Origin: Acidipropionibacterium acidipropionici
Lineage (GTDB): Bacteria; Actinomycetota; Actinomycetes; Propionibacteriales; Propionibacteriaceae
Reading direction: 5' to 3'
Length of the DNA: 64,000 nt
NCBI RefSeq assembly: GCF_001441165.1
Contig: NZ_CP013126.1
Coordinates: 3,191,551 to 3,255,550 of the forward strand
The notes beneath the pieces were generated by a model. The model was not told the DNA's origin, searched no databases, and saw only the letters and a program-made list of their open reading frames with translations. Of the stretch, positions 2,061 to 10,149 are shown one piece after another (positions within the stretch are counted from its first letter, which is position 1; every line of letters begins with the position of its first letter). Both the position numbers and the translations under genes were made by a program.

Positions 2061-2969
2061 ATGAAGACGATGACCCCCGCAGCCGCGATCGACCGGATCG
2101 GCAGCGCCACCAGTGCCCGGGACCTGTTCGAGGGCAGCCCGGCCGACCCGGCCGCCGCACGACGCGCCAGGCGTACCTACCGGATGCTCATCGCCCTCAT
2201 CCACCCCGACACCTCGGCCGCCCACGGGATCCCCGCCGACGCCGCCGGGAGGGCGGCCGCCAGGCTCAACCGTCTTCACCAGGAATGGCTTGACGCCGGC
2301 GCCGCGCCCCGCCGGACGACCACTTCTGCGTACGTCACCGGAACCCGTGGCACATACCTGCTCGGAGCCAGGCTGCGGCGCGGCCGACTCATCAGCGAGT
2401 ACACCACCGCCGAGCGGCACCTGCGGGTCGCGATCTGCCGCACCCCGGCGCCCTCGACCGACGCCCTCGAGGCGGCGGCCGAGCACCTGGGCCGTCGTGG
2501 GATGGCGGCCTTCGGCCCCCGCATCGTCGACCGCGGCACCGCTCAGGGCCGGGCATGGGTGGCCTACCGGCTCCCGAACGGGCTGCACACCCTCGCGGGG
2601 GTGCGCTCGGCCTACCCGCTCGGCCTCGACGGGCGCGACTGGGCCTGGATGGCCCGCCGGATCCTCATCGCCATGGACAGCGCCGGCGATCCGGCCCTCC
2701 CCGGCCTGGGCCTCGACACGGTGCTCATCGAGCCCGAGCACCACGGCGTCGTCCTCACCGGTTTCGGTGACGACGGCCCGACCCTCGGAGACCTCTTCGA
2801 CGCCATGCTCGACGCCGACGACGACGCCCGTCGTCAGCGGGACTGGGCACGGGCCGCCGACTCAACCCACCTGAGCGCCTCGGCAGCGCTCCACGAGTAC
2901 GACCTCCTGCTGACCCGTCTCTACGGGGCCCGCAGATATCGCCGATTCTCCATCCCGGAGACGGCCTGA
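2061..2969 (+). CDS. J-domain protein with C-terminal degenerate kinase-like domain
   Basis: The 302-residue protein opens with a J-like domain (about residues 15-80). It has the helix pattern AARRARRTYRMLIALIHPDT, with the invariant HPD at residues 48-50, which in DnaJ proteins stimulates Hsp70 ATPase. Residues about 105-270 have the shape of a protein-kinase fold: a YLLGARLRRG glycine-rich start, and VLIEPEHHGVVLTGFG where kinases have the NxLl...DFG segment. The catalytic HRD and the DFG aspartate are absent, so it looks like a pseudokinase; this part is inference. I chose ATG 2061 over the in-frame GTG at 2025 because the promoter elements overlap the longer reading. It is the first gene of the four-gene operon ending at 5982. 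Confidence 0.7.
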   Translation: MKTMTPAAAIDRIGSATSARDLFEGSPADPAAARRARRTYRMLIALIHPDTSAAHGIPADAAGRAAARLNRLHQEWLDAGAAPRRTTTSAYVTGTRGTYLLGARLRRGRLISEYTTAERHLRVAICRTPAPSTDALEAAAEHLGRRGMAAFGPRIVDRGTAQGRAWVAYRLPNGLHTLAGVRSAYPLGLDGRDWAWMARRILIAMDSAGDPALPGLGLDTVLIEPEHHGVVLTGFGDDGPTLGDLFDAMLDADDDARRQRDWARAADSTHLSASAALHEYDLLLTRLYGARRYRRFSIPETA

Positions 2970-3021
2970 AGCACCATGGCGGCCCTCGCCCGAGAGCCGC
3001 CCCCGATGAAAGGAGCCCGTC

Positions 3022-3987
3022 ATGGGCGGAGGAATCTGGGACACCAGCGCATACATCCACGCGGCGCACGCCCGCCGAGCGGCCGGTCAGGACGACTTCG
3101 GCTACACCTCGACGATCCGACACACCCCGCGGAACACCTGGCGGGCGGCGCCCTCCCTGGACGCCTACGGCGCCAGGGTCAGGGAGGCCAGGGATTCCGA
3201 GGAGCACCCTGCCAGCACCCCCATCGCCGTCCTCTTCGACGTCACCGGATCCATGGGATCGGTGCCCGTCACCCTCCAGAAGCGGCTGCCCGACCTGCTC
3301 GGCCTGCTCACCCGCGGCGGCTACGCCCAGGACCCGCAGATCCTGGTCGGCGCGATCGGCGACGACCAGTACGACACTGTTCCCCTGCAGGTCGGCCAGT
3401 TCGAGTCCGACAACCGGATCGATGACCAGCTGCGCGACATCTTCCTGGAGGGCGGTGGCGGTGGCGACCAGCGCGAGGGATACGCCCTGGCAGCGCACTT
3501 CCTGGCCACCCGGGCACGCCTCGACAGTCTGGAGAAGCGCGGCAGGAAGGGCTACCTCTTCCTCATCGGCGACGAGGCCAACAAGAAGCGGCTATTCGCC
3601 CGCTCGGTGCGCCGCTACATCGGCGACTCCCAGACCCGCGACCTCGACGTCGCCGACGTCTATCGCAGGCTCGAGGAGAAGTTCCACATCTGGTTCATCG
3701 TGCCGAATCTCACCTCCTACTACGACGAGCCCTGGCTGGAGGAGCACTGGCGCGCGATCGTCGGGGAGCACTTCCTCAAGCTCGAGGACCCCGAGGCGGT
3801 CTGCGATCTCATCGCCCTGACCGTCGGCATCATGGAGGACGCGATCACCCTGGACGAGGGCCTGTCCGATCTCGCCGATCTCGGGTCCACCGGCGGCGCG
3901 GCTGTCGGGAAGGCGCTCGCCAGGACCGCGGGACGAGGCGCCGGCCGGCAGGTGGCGACCGGCGGGATCCTGCCCGCCGACCTGTGA
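3022..3987 (+). CDS. von Willebrand factor type A domain protein
   Basis: The 321-residue cytoplasmic protein (no signal peptide or membrane segment) carries a vWA domain. The metal-binding MIDAS motif is present as D73-V-T75-G-S77, inside a typical beta strand (IAVLFDVTGSM). Further MIDAS-type contacts may come from the loop EGGGGGDQREG and from FLIGDEAN. Such domains bind Mg2+ and scaffold protein complexes. The ATG at 3022 follows an AAAGGAG ribosome site (3009-3015). It lies 52 bases after the J-domain gene and 10 bases before the adenylosuccinate-synthetase paralog, so the genes are probably co-transcribed. The partner is unknown; the neighbouring J-domain/pseudokinase protein is the obvious candidate. 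Confidence 0.85.
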   Translation: MGGGIWDTSAYIHAAHARRAAGQDDFGYTSTIRHTPRNTWRAAPSLDAYGARVREARDSEEHPASTPIAVLFDVTGSMGSVPVTLQKRLPDLLGLLTRGGYAQDPQILVGAIGDDQYDTVPLQVGQFESDNRIDDQLRDIFLEGGGGGDQREGYALAAHFLATRARLDSLEKRGRKGYLFLIGDEANKKRLFARSVRRYIGDSQTRDLDVADVYRRLEEKFHIWFIVPNLTSYYDEPWLEEHWRAIVGEHFLKLEDPEAVCDLIALTVGIMEDAITLDEGLSDLADLGSTGGAAVGKALARTAGRGAGRQVATGGILPADL

Positions 3988-3997
3988 GGAGTCCGCG

Positions 3998-5434
3998 ATG
4001 AGACCACTGGGCACCGGCCCCGGGCAGGCGATCATCGTCGTCGGCCTGGGGTTCGGGGACGAGGCCAAGGGCGCCACCGTCGACCATCTGGCATGGCGGA
4101 TACCCGACACGACGGCGGTCGTCCGCTGGTCCGGGGGCGTCCAGGCGGCGCACAACGTCGTCCATGGGCCGCGCCACCACACCTTCCGCCAGTTCGGCTC
4201 GGCCACCCTGCTGGGTGTGCCGACCCTGCTGCGGGCCCCGATGATGGTCGATCCTCTGGGACTCTCCGTGGAGGCCGAGGAGCTGCGCGGTCTCGGTGTG
4301 GCTGCGCCACTCAATCTGATCACCGCGGACCCGCGATGCCTGGTCACCACCCCGTTCCATGCCGCGATGAATCGGGCCAGGGAGGAGTCTCGTGGAACGG
4401 GCGTCCATGGGTCATGCGGGATGGGGGTCGGGGAGACGGTGGCCTTCGCCCTGGCCGCGGCCGGCCTGGACGCCGGGAATCTGCCGTTGGCCGGCGTCGG
4501 CCCCGGCGCCCCGGTACTGAGGGTCGGCGACCTGCGCGACCGGGCCGCGACGATCCGCGGTCTCGACGCCCTGGCCCGCGCCGCCGCGACCCTGACCGAG
4601 GATCTTCCCGCAGTCGGGGCCGTGGCGGAGGCGATGTGCGACCTCGCCGGTGATCTGAGGATCGCTGACGACATGGATGCCGTCCTGGCCCGCCGTCTGG
4701 AGGCCGGGACCGTCATCTTCGAGGGATCCCAGGGGGTGCTCCTCGACGAGTTCGCGGGCTTCCACCCGCACACCACCTGGGCGACGCTGAATCCGCGGGC
4801 ACGGGCGAATGCGTCCGGCGGCGCCGCGGACTCCCAAGATGTCACTGGCCTGCCCCGCCCTCACCTCGGTCTGGCGGACCAGCTGGAACGCGCCGGCCAC
4901 CGGCCCTACGTGCTCGGCCTCACCCGGTCCTACAGCACCCGGCACGGCGCGGGTCCGCTGCCCACCGAGGACCCGGCTCAGCGATTCCCCGAGCCTCATA
5001 ACGGCGTCACCTACCAGGGGGCGTGGCGACAGGGACCGCTGGACCTCGACCTGCTGCGCTACGCGGCACGAGCCGTCGGCGTGGACGGCGTGGGCGTCAG
5101 TCACCTCGACGCCCCGGTCCGCGTTGTCTCCCCCAGCTGGTCGGGCCCCGAGAGCCGGCTGCGCGACGTGCAGTCCCTGTCCGGCCAGGATCTGGAGATC
5201 GTCCGCGACGCCAATGCCGCTGCGGCGACACGCGCACATCCCGAATACGATCGGGTGCAGGGCCGTGACGACGTCATCTCCCGGATCGAGGAGGCGACGG
5301 GCGCCCCGGTGGTGCTGGTCGCCGACGGCCCGACCCGCATGGACAGGAGCATCAGGTGGTCGCCGAGAGCATCTTCAGCGTCGTCTCCATCGACGTCCTG
5401 GCCTGCCGCTACGACCGCGACTCACGCACGGTGA
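3998..5434 (+). CDS. adenylosuccinate synthetase-like (PurA paralog)
   Basis: The 478-residue protein aligns with PurA, which joins IMP and aspartate using GTP. The P-loop motif reads GDEAKG (residues 20-25) in place of GDEGKG, keeping the catalytic aspartate. GGVQAAHNV keeps the catalytic histidine (H52) where PurA has GGNNAGHTV. EGSQGVLLDEF (from about residue 246) and TRHGAGPLPTE match the IMP/aspartate-loop regions. The segment HPHTTWATLN replaces the usual YPYVTSSN, so the substrate pocket is altered. The last 26 or so residues overlap the next gene by 79 bases and look non-native, so a frameshift near the 3' end is possible. The setting, away from purine genes, argues against a housekeeping role. 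Confidence 0.8.
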   Translation: MRPLGTGPGQAIIVVGLGFGDEAKGATVDHLAWRIPDTTAVVRWSGGVQAAHNVVHGPRHHTFRQFGSATLLGVPTLLRAPMMVDPLGLSVEAEELRGLGVAAPLNLITADPRCLVTTPFHAAMNRAREESRGTGVHGSCGMGVGETVAFALAAAGLDAGNLPLAGVGPGAPVLRVGDLRDRAATIRGLDALARAAATLTEDLPAVGAVAEAMCDLAGDLRIADDMDAVLARRLEAGTVIFEGSQGVLLDEFAGFHPHTTWATLNPRARANASGGAADSQDVTGLPRPHLGLADQLERAGHRPYVLGLTRSYSTRHGAGPLPTEDPAQRFPEPHNGVTYQGAWRQGPLDLDLLRYAARAVGVDGVGVSHLDAPVRVVSPSWSGPESRLRDVQSLSGQDLEIVRDANAAAATRAHPEYDRVQGRDDVISRIEEATGAPVVLVADGPTRMDRSIRWSPRASSASSPSTSWPAATTATHAR

Positions 5435-5982
5435 TGGTGGCGGCGTACGACCGGGACACCGAGCCCTTCGTCGGAGTCCCCGCCCTACCAGGGGTGGTGG
5501 TGCGCAGCGGCGAGCGGATCTTCGAGGCCGCGGCTCGGGCGATCGGCAAGATCGGTGCGCAGCTGCCGGCCGACCGCGGCCAGCTGCGGACCTTCGACGA
5601 GCCCTCCCGCGATCCACGGGGCCCGTCCCTGTCCATCGCAGTCTGGGCGATACTCGGCCCCACTGACCCGGCCGAGGCCGCGATCTGGCGCCCCGTCGAC
5701 GCCCCCGGGCACCTGGCCTTCGACCATGCCCGGATCGTCGCGGACTGTCGGCCACTGCTGGCAGATCACCTGTGGCGAGATGCGGCGTTCACCCGTGCGC
5801 TCACCCGGCCGGAGTTCACCGGCACCGACGCAGTGGCCATCGCCGAACAACTGACCGGCGGGCCGGTTCACCGGGCCAACCTCAACCGGGAGCTCGCGAG
5901 GATCCCGGGCCTGGCCGACGCCGGCACCGGCGTCGGCCTGGGTCCCCGACCCCCGAAACTCTGGCGCTGGGAACAGGGGTGA
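5356..5982 (+). CDS. Nudix-like/winged-helix protein, NrtR-like
   Basis: The 208-residue protein has an N-terminal Nudix-like fold (about residues 5-140). The Nudix box is degenerate: GERIFEAAARAIGKIGAQ has RAIGKI where hydrolases have REUxEE, so both catalytic glutamates are missing. The C-terminus (about 150-206) resembles the winged helix of NrtR regulators: FTGTDAVAIAEQL, then PVHRANLNRELAR and a closing GPRPPKLWRW. NrtR proteins sense ADP-ribose-type nucleotides and repress NAD genes. Here it may sense a nucleotide made or consumed by the PurA paralog, which is inference. GTG 5356 follows an AGGAG at 5345-5349. Its reading frame overlaps the PurA paralog by 79 bases. Confidence 0.65.
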   Translation: MVAESIFSVVSIDVLACRYDRDSRTVMVAAYDRDTEPFVGVPALPGVVVRSGERIFEAAARAIGKIGAQLPADRGQLRTFDEPSRDPRGPSLSIAVWAILGPTDPAEAAIWRPVDAPGHLAFDHARIVADCRPLLADHLWRDAAFTRALTRPEFTGTDAVAIAEQLTGGPVHRANLNRELARIPGLADAGTGVGLGPRPPKLWRWEQG

Positions 5983-9024: not shown

Positions 9025-10149
9025 TCACCCCTGTCCGGAGAGGTGGTTCTCCGCCCACTCCGCGATGCGTGCGTTCCGCGCCGCCACGAACTGCAGGACT
9101 CCGTGTGCGTACGACTCATACTCAGCGACGGTCTCCGGGAGTGGCGACCTTTGAAAATCGTCGAACGGCAGGTGGAAGACAACACCTCCATATGGGCCGA
9201 GTAGGTCTTGAAGTAGGAAGAAATCGACGTATCCGCCGAAGTCTCCGAACAGTTCGAAGAAGTCGCCGTACCGGTCGAGGACGTCAGTCAACGGGCTGGA
9301 ACCACCGTCATAGTGGCGTCGGATGCACTCGAGGGTCAGGTCGAAGCGATCGGCGATGCGCCAGTTCATGCCTCGCGCACCGTTGATCGTCGGTTTTCGA
9401 TCCCTCACCGTTCCCGGGAACAGGATGAACCCGCCGATGGTGCTGCCCTCCTTGAAGACTCTCGACACCAGGTCGGGATCCACCTGCGCGATCACGTCAC
9501 CGATGCGATTGGTGTACGAGGCCCTGTACGAGTGCACGATCGCGTCGCTGGCCAAGGAGAGGATTCGGTCGAGGCCTTTGTACCTCAGGTACGTTCCCTG
9601 GCCCTGGGTGTCCAGCCTGAACGGCGTCCCATCGGGAAGCCGCTTGCTCCACAGGATCTGGTGGTAGCGCCGCAGAGTCGGACTGTACTTGTCAGGATCT
9701 CTACCTCCGGCGTCGGACTCGACGTCGAACGTGATGTCGATCGATGTCCCGGCAGAAGCCTCGTTCAAGACTCTCTCGCCGCCTGAACTCCGACTCCCGC
9801 GACAGGCCGCGTGCCTGACATCCATGGCGGCGTCGACGGCTCGGCGCACAGAGTCGCTGACCGGTTCATCCTCCCGGTATGGCAGATCGATCTGAATGCC
9901 ATCCGCCGAGCGAATGATCATCTGCTGGAAGCGCGACGTGTCGAGAGCCTCTTTGAGCCGAATGTATCCGGGGGTCCGGTTCGAGAAGGACATTCGCAAT
10001 GGGCTGTTCGTCGTCCCGAGGCGACTCGGAATGAACTCGAGGGCGGCGAAGCTTCCCCCTGGGCGGATCCAGGCAGATCCATCGATGCCCTCCTCCGTCC
10101 TAGCCCCTTTGCCGCGGTGGTAGGCGCTCATTGCCGAGACGCATCGCAA
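9025..10149 (-). CDS. DUF6994-like protein, start uncertain
   Basis: The C-terminal 240 residues resemble the DUF6994 family, of unknown function. Features are SPTLRRYHQILWSKRLPDG, FDLTLECIRRHY and FELFGDFGGYVDFFLLQDL. The family normally begins shortly before the TFDVESDAGGRDPDKYSP stretch. The preceding roughly 125 residues are therefore either an unusual extension or the in-frame remnant of another gene. Possible starts include 10149 (as listed), ATG 10131 and a TTG at about 9768. The DNA is A+T-rich relative to its surroundings, which is consistent with transfer. It is a soluble protein with no obvious catalytic motif. Confidence 0.55.
   Translation of the reverse strand: MRCVSAMSAYHRGKGARTEEGIDGSAWIRPGGSFAALEFIPSRLGTTNSPLRMSFSNRTPGYIRLKEALDTSRFQQMIIRSADGIQIDLPYREDEPVSDSVRRAVDAAMDVRHAACRGSRSSGGERVLNEASAGTSIDITFDVESDAGGRDPDKYSPTLRRYHQILWSKRLPDGTPFRLDTQGQGTYLRYKGLDRILSLASDAIVHSYRASYTNRIGDVIAQVDPDLVSRVFKEGSTIGGFILFPGTVRDRKPTINGARGMNWRIADRFDLTLECIRRHYDGGSSPLTDVLDRYGDFFELFGDFGGYVDFFLLQDLLGPYGGVVFHLPFDDFQRSPLPETVAEYESYAHGVLQFVAARNARIAEWAENHLSGQG

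Follow-up and report, generated by a model that had tools for sequence, protein, structure and literature searches.

A von Willebrand factor A protein and a PurA-like enzyme at the core of an apparently undescribed gene module of phages and bacteria

The closest described relatives of the system presented here are known from separate lines of work, and statements on published systems refer, here and below, to the parts of the cited texts on which they draw. In E. coli PurA, Arg303 interacts with free aspartate, and in the phage enzyme PurZ the same substrate is contacted by a loop that has an identical tip in S-2L and phiVC8 (PMC8342488). Serine replaces the catalytic aspartate in all 147 phage sequences of the PurZ group (PMC12884076). 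Conflict systems with a Nudix repressor and a vWA chaperone around an ADP-ribosylglycohydrolase have been predicted (PMC9503650), and pairs of MoxR and vWA proteins of jumbo phages have been proposed to act in virion assembly (PMC7824862). Here we analyse a four-gene operon of Acidipropionibacterium acidipropionici encoding a J-domain pseudokinase (K), a vWA protein (V), a PurA-like enzyme (P) and an NrtR/AraR-type regulator (N). The operon lies at positions 2061-5982 of a stretch of 64,000 nucleotides (the window), which covers 3.19-3.26 Mb of a 3.65 Mb single-contig genome.

All four reading frames were confirmed, with gaps of 52 bases between K and V and 10 bases between V and P and an overlap of 79 bases between P and N (Table 1). 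The K frame starts with the ATG at 2061, and an in-frame TTG is also found at 2025. A sequence-only reading of the window had described this gene order and these junctions, a J domain fused to a dead-looking kinase fold, a vWA protein with a competent metal-ion-dependent adhesion site (MIDAS), a second PurA, and a broken Nudix domain joined to a winged helix; each of these descriptions holds. Among the four proteins only P exceeds the curated Pfam cut-offs. The PHROGs families (viruses of bacteria and archaea) match K, V and P, a first sign that the operon has phage relatives.

We propose, with a probability of about 0.42, that the operon is a bacterial copy of a probably phage-born module, found in highly varied forms in large phages, of nucleotide metabolism linked to nicotinamide adenine dinucleotide (NAD+) or ADP-ribose, whose bacterial copies stand under a Nudix repressor. 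The linkage of the module and the conserved palindrome at its start were compared directly, and from these and the protein families we infer the chemical and physiological steps.

Relatives of V were collected from bacterial contigs (at least 543) and viral contigs (280), and the best 80 of each were examined, a selection which makes the linkage counts and the tree lean toward closer relatives, above all bacterial ones. A P gene is found no more than 8 kb from V in 79 of the 80 bacterial and 75 of the 80 viral loci. In the six loci where it is missing, 129, 2871, 2005, 3290, 114 and 2 bases of sequence are available downstream of V; the widest gap between V and P in the remaining loci is 3313 bases. 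Viral loci found through P give the reciprocal picture: V is present in 77 of 80, and in the other three P starts less than 0.9 kb from the contig end. Chance association is excluded, as P accompanies V in 154 of the 160 V loci. Accordingly, we reject the possibility that the homologs mostly occur apart, and the earlier suggestion of one conserved system, co-occurring in distant genomes and in phages, is strongly supported. Among 50,697 phage records, V was found in 208 and P in 218; their counts, which were not matched record by record, are equal in the main phage groups (189 and 189 in Mycobacterium, 10 and 10 in Rhizobium, 6 and 6 in Vibrio phages). The linkage indicates that the four genes form a real module common to phages and bacteria.

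The other two genes are less constant. K was found in 53 of the 80 bacterial and 50 of the 80 viral V loci, N in 76 and 2, respectively. These counts define V and P as a near-invariant core, K as a usual partner and N as tied to the bacterial copies. When neighbours were clustered, shadow frames left aside, no further family occurred in more than 9 of 84 non-redundant loci (non-redundant sets were thinned at 75%, a level that we chose). Used as query in the viral contig scan, K returned 3 loci, presumably because it is too divergent for the scan method. The order is K-V-P-N on two actinobacterial plasmids, while N is transcribed divergently from K-V-P on three alphaproteobacterial plasmids; one C1 mycobacteriophage has, in this order, a kinase-like gene, V, a small gene and a PurA-like gene.

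Some phage loci show additional genes upstream of V. A conserved protein of about 130 residues is encoded 200-580 bases before V in nine viral loci in which K was not detected (L129, L146, L149, L155, L159, L162, L166, L168 and L171). A Met-rich protein upstream of V is common to L005, L006 and L153 (a Vibrio phage, a Rhizobium phage and one viral contig), and its L005 copy has no Pfam match. In the Rhizobium phage, a HAD hydrolase and a ComF-like phosphoribosyltransferase (PF15610), a Ter-like pair, are found upstream of V-P (L006:3005-4457).

Table 1. Features of the operon, in window coordinates
Feature	Position	Strand	Evidence
Predicted N operator, near-palindrome AATTACTC-N5-GAGTATTT, directly before the K start codon	2037-2057	.	
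K: J domain (HPD = residues 48-50) and pseudokinase	2061-2969	+	ORF, profiles, AlphaFold model
V: vWA/MIDAS protein, conserved N-terminal MG-x-G-x-W motif	3022-3987	+	phrog_2971, 1.4e-69
V N-terminal motif codons, M-G-G-G-I-W	3022-3039	+	
V MIDAS motif D73-V-T75-G-S77	3238-3252	+	
P: PurA-type synthetase; core D21, K24, H52, Q245, D371; new second-substrate motif H316, N335, Q340-G341, R344	3998-5434	+	phrog_1211, 2.7e-56
N: NrtR/AraR-type regulator, inactive Nudix domain and winged helix	5356-5982	+	

P is clearly a member of the PurA fold family, matching Pfam Adenylsucc_synt (PF00709) with 149.9 bits (cut-off 27), and falls below the curated equivalog cut-offs of NF002223 (109.5 versus 402) and TIGR00184 (95.2 versus 395.55). 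An ordinary purA (600 bits) lies 1.3 Mb away, so P is not the only purA of the genome. We aligned 77 non-redundant P sequences with a fragment of the host PurA, whose residue numbers are used below, and with a PurZ. The catalytic residues are kept: the Asp of GDEGKG in 76 sequences (the other has a gap), the His of AGH and the Gln of EGAQG in all 77, and the guanine-site Asp in 75. Other positions are altered just as consistently, with N34 changed to Gln in 75, T124 to Cys or Val in 75 and V268 to His in 77. The aspartate-binding TTGRxR loop is absent from P and replaced throughout the family by N (77), a few residues, mostly with an aromatic, and then Q (76)-G (72)-x2-R (75). In the window the new motif comprises H316, N335, Q340 and R344, with the spacing N-x4-Q-G-x2-R. 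In our reading, the loop that contacts aspartate in PurZ, as described in PMC8342488, is the same loop as the one replaced here. We conclude that P would activate a 6-oxopurine with GTP, without the usual use of free aspartate. Since the amine pocket of this PurA clade is rebuilt, an unknown purine nucleotide or conjugate is the likely product.

No Pfam model fits V, and the PHROGs family that it matches is of unknown function. The AlphaFold model of V (predicted local distance difference test, pLDDT, 93.5) has a vWA fold, with integrin I domains as the best Foldseek matches (E 4e-6). The MIDAS residues D73, T75, S77 and D184 are invariant among 63 sequences, which places V with the vWA/MIDAS proteins; M1, G2, D58, G76, D114, Q123, E128, G146 and E152 are likewise invariant. 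The N-terminus is almost fixed. Of 168 V sequences, 162 begin with M-G and have a usable start codon where one is expected; among these, 155 have Gly or Ser as fourth residue and 159 have W, Y or F as sixth. Three of the six exceptions (L115, L146 and L168) show the motif by eye. For this count and for the 63-sequence alignment the start was picked by the MG pattern; starts placed by the profile, without that pattern, give the same N-terminal picture. With glycine in second position, methionine aminopeptidase should remove the methionine.

Some C1 mycobacteriophages carry interrupted forms of V. In StubbySaigey (L270:2965-4785), an in-frame intein-like insert is seen by eye between KGY and CIFIGDE, adjoining the invariant GDE of the metal site. 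In further C1 phages V is split in two pieces.

The profile of the K family matches a solved J domain (2ys8, 8.5e-5) as well as kinases, and the window's K matches phrog_3043, named 'kinase', over 58 residues (4.7e-5). In its AlphaFold model (pLDDT 90.3) helices 30-47 and 59-80 flank the HPD, as in J domains, and kinases are the best fold matches, with TM-scores of about 0.4. Of 58 relatives, 47 have a literal HPD, a conservation that makes recruitment of Hsp70 through the J domain plausible. The same 58 sequences do not look like active kinases: Ala or Gly replaces the Asp of the catalytic loop (HRD) in 50, and 2 retain it. Each of two further residues, the beta-3 Lys and the alpha-C Glu, is kept in 40 of the 58, and both are lost in the window's K, where catalytic motifs are absent. 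The K family is thus predicted to consist of pseudokinases.

A profile built from four N sequences matches AraR (3.5e-32), NadQ structures and the Nudix protein 3gz5, which we take to be an NrtR, so that N combines a Nudix domain with a winged helix. The window's N matches the NCBIfam NrtR model weakly (E 0.0036, score 16.8 versus a cut-off of 400). Pfam NrtR_WHD exceeds its threshold for L010 and L121, falls short of it for L008 and is not reported for the window's N. By eye, the Nudix catalytic box is broken in the window's N and a few others. The strict box was found in 0 of 80 non-phage N frames, a weak test, as the pattern also misses phage N proteins that keep RExxEExG (L121, L196, L198 and L199).

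A 21-bp palindrome is found near the start of the operon. In 78 of 79 actinobacterial N loci, 53 led by K and 26 by V, its score exceeds that of every one of 79 control regions drawn from within P, L065 being the odd one out; the palindrome was derived from the same loci before scoring, and the controls alone are independent. Most Rhodococcus and many Nocardia loci carry it as TTTTAGTC-N5-GACTAAAA, Saccharothrix and its relatives as TTTGAGTC-N5-GACTCAAA, and the window, like its nearest kin, as ACTC-N5-GAGT. The window's copy scores 18 of 24, compared to a control maximum of 17, and matches its near kin. In loci without K the palindrome stands before V, mostly by less than 70 bases (194 in L030). 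The 17-bp core at 2039-2055 has a single exact copy in the genome; a site differing from it at one position is found 286 bases beyond the purA match, and a reversed control also yields one such site. Because the palindrome directly precedes the first gene, N is most likely a repressor of its own operon. Some Nocardia loci, L056, L071 and L087 among them, have another, unlike palindrome (TTTTTGTC...ACAAAAA) upstream of K, about 50 bases before the main one.

Next, we looked at the neighbours of the module in phages, combining the loci found through V and through P into 106 non-redundant phage loci (160 loci with V before thinning) with up to 8 kb on each side. Twelve of them carry nadV, in all 12 cases on the strand of the module and in 11 within 1.5 kb of it. 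The nadV of L121 has Pfam NAMPT_N and NAPRTase matches, and the remaining copies were assigned by similarity. For example, the order N-nadV-V-P-K is found in L121, L196, L198, L199 and L203 (L196 and L198 are redundant at 75%), and in L257 nadM lies upstream of nadV and V-P. NadV has been found in 22% of medium-sized and 33% of jumbo phages (PMC9503650), so its presence alone says little and it is the tight spacing that is informative. Together with the NrtR-type regulator of the bacterial copies, this spacing points to NAD+/ADP-ribose metabolism. RtcB, RecA, clamp loader and DnaE-like neighbours, recognised by eye in 3-5 of the 106 loci each, were taken as background. TROVE/Ro60-type genes, found in 6 of the 106 loci, all on the module strand and within 3 kb (for example L005:12370-13878, with a Pfam TROVE match), were kept as a lead.

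These observations suggest the following mechanism. P would activate a 6-oxopurine nucleotide with GTP and join it to an amine other than free aspartate, yielding an N6-modified purine nucleotide or conjugate. V, a MIDAS protein exposing a Gly-x-Gly/Ser N-terminus once its methionine is removed, would be the partner or the acceptor for P. Where present, K would tether the complex to host Hsp70 by its J domain, its pseudokinase domain serving for binding rather than catalysis. The module would serve NAD+/ADP-ribose-linked metabolism in phage-host conflict, and N would release the operon when an ADP-ribose-like ligand rises. We favour this setting because some phages place the module beside nadV or nadM and because a Nudix repressor accompanies it in bacteria.

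In a bolder version, the amine substrate of P would be the N-terminal glycine of V itself, to which a purine nucleotide activated at O6 with GTP would become attached. The N-terminus of V would then be the N6 substituent of an adenine nucleotide, possibly of NAD or ADP-ribose type. We know of no other protein-nucleotide linkage via N6 of adenine. The near-universal M-G-x-[GS]-x-[WYF] start, the near-obligate pairing of V and P and the missing free-aspartate loop agree with this version, which we nevertheless consider a long shot.

Several observations weigh against our proposal or parts of it. As many as 94 of the 106 phage loci show no nadV in the sequence covered, two replication genes also lie close to the module in the few loci that have them (DnaE-like in 3 of 3 and RecA-like in 2 of 4 cases within 1.5 kb), and no NAD gene was identified beside bacterial modules, where no search was aimed at one. 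AraR, the best structural match of N, belongs to arabinose use (PMC4666351). P still has one Arg of the aspartate loop, so its donor may yet be aspartate-like or acidic. Three of the 168 V sequences have no normal start codon at the V motif (Ile codons in L072 and L109, Lys in L123). K went undetected in 27 of the 80 bacterial and 30 of the 80 viral loci, which means that recruitment of Hsp70 is not essential. The Rhodovulum plasmid locus L263 has K, V and N and no P within 16.7 kb. The pairwise distances of V, P and K agree modestly (r 0.20, 0.37 and 0.21, the best of 300 shuffles being 0.139, 0.127 and 0.128), and genes may therefore be swapped within the module. Finally, phage origin is an extrapolation, because the V tree is unrooted in itself and the bacterial sample consists of the 80 closest relatives. 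Further along L263, two genes resemble microvirus proteins by eye, with no Pfam match.

The distribution of V is uneven. Among the matches listed, its nearest relatives come from records of Propionibacterium, Tessaracoccus and Isoptericola. Of 147 genomes in the window's family, 3 have V, counting the window's own, and none of the 4 same-genus genomes listed does, a rarity as expected for an acquired cassette. By comparison, 109 of the 200 genomes sampled from one actinobacterial family (that of G350) have V. A broad sample of the phylum gave 2 of 396 genomes, the window's own counted, possibly an undercount, as few candidates (5) were scored. Plasmid records with V number 21. In a midpoint-rooted tree of 84 V sequences (68 phage, 16 bacterial), the bacterial rows stand at three places among the phage rows: 14 actinobacterial sequences form one group, that of an Agrobacterium plasmid lies among other phages, and that of a Variovorax plasmid occupies a third position. 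This corresponds to 3 label changes, with a forced minimum of 2, and the phage rows are more varied than the bacterial ones. In 15 of 27 bacterial loci without K, all Nocardia by record title (including L024, L028, L034, L042, L057, L072 and L073), an adenine-phosphoribosyltransferase-like (apt-like) gene precedes V-P-N, and in many of the 15 a RelA-like (rel-like) gene follows (names by eye). This shared setting looks like one inherited place. Some lineages have thus acquired the module as a cassette, in others it belongs to the standing equipment, and it is probably of phage birth.

The sequence-only reading had offered, as one possibility, a stress or defence system in which the Nudix-like N senses a product of P. 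As a defence system, the four proteins would sense phage infection through N or V, P would make a toxic or signalling nucleotide to halt it, and the phage copies would be decoys or counter-copies. Carriage on plasmids, patchiness in the window's family, the bacterial V rows among phage rows and the conflict systems predicted in PMC9503650 are consistent with defence. The survey does not show such a role: none of the four proteins has a PADLOC match (E 1), no toxic effector domain was recognised in them, and both the presence of V in more than half of the genomes of one family and the fixed place of the module between apt-like and rel-like genes in the Nocardia group look like inherited physiology. 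We therefore regard defence as unlikely, though worth keeping in sight. The role given to N also changes, from a sensor of the P product to an operon repressor, for which the phage nadV and nadM neighbours favour an NAD or ADP-ribose ligand at least as much.

P could also be a plain adenylosuccinate synthetase topping up adenine nucleotides for phage replication, with V and K as chaperones of P or of virions. C1 phage annotations name it so, and the PurA catalytic core is intact in 75-77 of the 77 P sequences, depending on the residue. Against this stand the family-wide exchange of the aspartate loop for another conserved motif, with altered contact residues nearby, and the lack of a named adenylosuccinate lyase in the annotated module neighbourhoods examined. 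The fixed partner V and the presence of P in a bacterium with its own purA would also be left unexplained, which makes this explanation rather unlikely.

Decidedly unlikely, in our view, is a chaperone module for the assembly of a large complex, virion or membrane, in which K and V would fold clients and P would supply a nucleotide regulator. The J domain of K, the use of vWA proteins as co-chaperones and the proposal for jumbo-phage MoxR-vWA pairs agree with it. Yet the module has no constant AAA+ partner, no added neighbour family recurs beyond the 9 loci given above, bacterial chromosomes carry it, and the most constant partner of V is P, not K.

A PurZ-like role for P in making 2-aminoadenine (Z) DNA, evoked by the PHROGs family name '2-aminooxy adenylosuccinate synthetase', is barely credible and was rejected, given the catalytic Asp in 76 of 77 P sequences where PurZ has Ser (PMC12884076), a score of 12.6 against the NCBIfam PurZ model (cut-off 300) and the presence of P in bacteria.

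Around the operon, the window encodes a PRiA4_ORF3 protein upstream on the opposite strand (597-1961) and, downstream, a PemK/MazF-like toxin (PF02452, 8431-9012) and a DUF6994 protein (9025-10149). In the two related genomes that carry V (G039 and G105) the PRiA4-like gene is located elsewhere.

Large phages and about half of the sampled genomes of one actinobacterial family share a module that has PHROG numbers and routine names but, in the open-licence literature searched, no described function. Its notable parts are the near-fixed N-terminus of a vWA family and a rebuilt PurA amine pocket. The nadV neighbourhood in phages and the Nudix repressor in bacteria suggest an arms race over NAD and ADP-ribose as a concrete, testable setting.

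How does the module compare with known systems? With PurA, PurZ and PurZ0, P shares the fold family, the Asp of GDEGKG, the His of AGH, the Gln of EGAQG and the guanine-site Asp. It differs in the N-x4-Q-G-x2-R loop (spacing of the window), in a position that is Val in host PurA and PurZ and His in all 77 P sequences, in Gln for Asn (75 of 77) and in being tied to V; unlike PurZ, it has the catalytic Asp. N resembles the NrtR, AraR and NadQ regulators in its Nudix-like domain, its winged helix and the presence of a palindrome where the operon begins. The mycobacterial NrtR site, GTTTTCGA-N7-TCGAAAAC (PMC6800001), differs from the most common form of the module palindrome, TTTTAGTC-N5-GACTAAAA, and no known NAD gene is among the four module genes.

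As in the systems with Nudix repressor and vWA chaperone of PMC9503650, a one-component Nudix repressor and a standalone vWA protein share one operon. Here the enzyme is related to PurA instead, and no glycohydrolase was seen, although none was searched for. The words PurA and adenylosuccinate are absent from the main text of that article, as is adenylosuccinate from the main texts on ternary MoxR-vWA systems (PMC7159879) and jumbo phages (PMC7824862), the latter also lacking PurA. Ter systems, MoxR-vWA sets and TerY-kinase-phosphatase sets likewise place a vWA protein beside a kinase-fold protein and nucleotide enzymes. In our loci K is a pseudokinase with a J domain, and no TerD, TerC, TelA, MoxR or PP2C partner was noticed, none having been searched for. 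Phage NAD+ salvage by NadV with NadM, which we take to be NARP2, touches the module through the nadV genes, in L257 also nadM, beside V-P in some phages, but the scans made assign none of V, P and K to a family of NAD enzymes.

Two genome announcements use the gene name 'PurA-like adenylosuccinate synthetase' in the portions cited, and no paper describing the set was found in the open-licence literature searched. The parts of this module are known domain families, while the whole fits no system tested, and what unites them is apparently an undescribed module built on the pairing of a vWA protein with a modified PurA.

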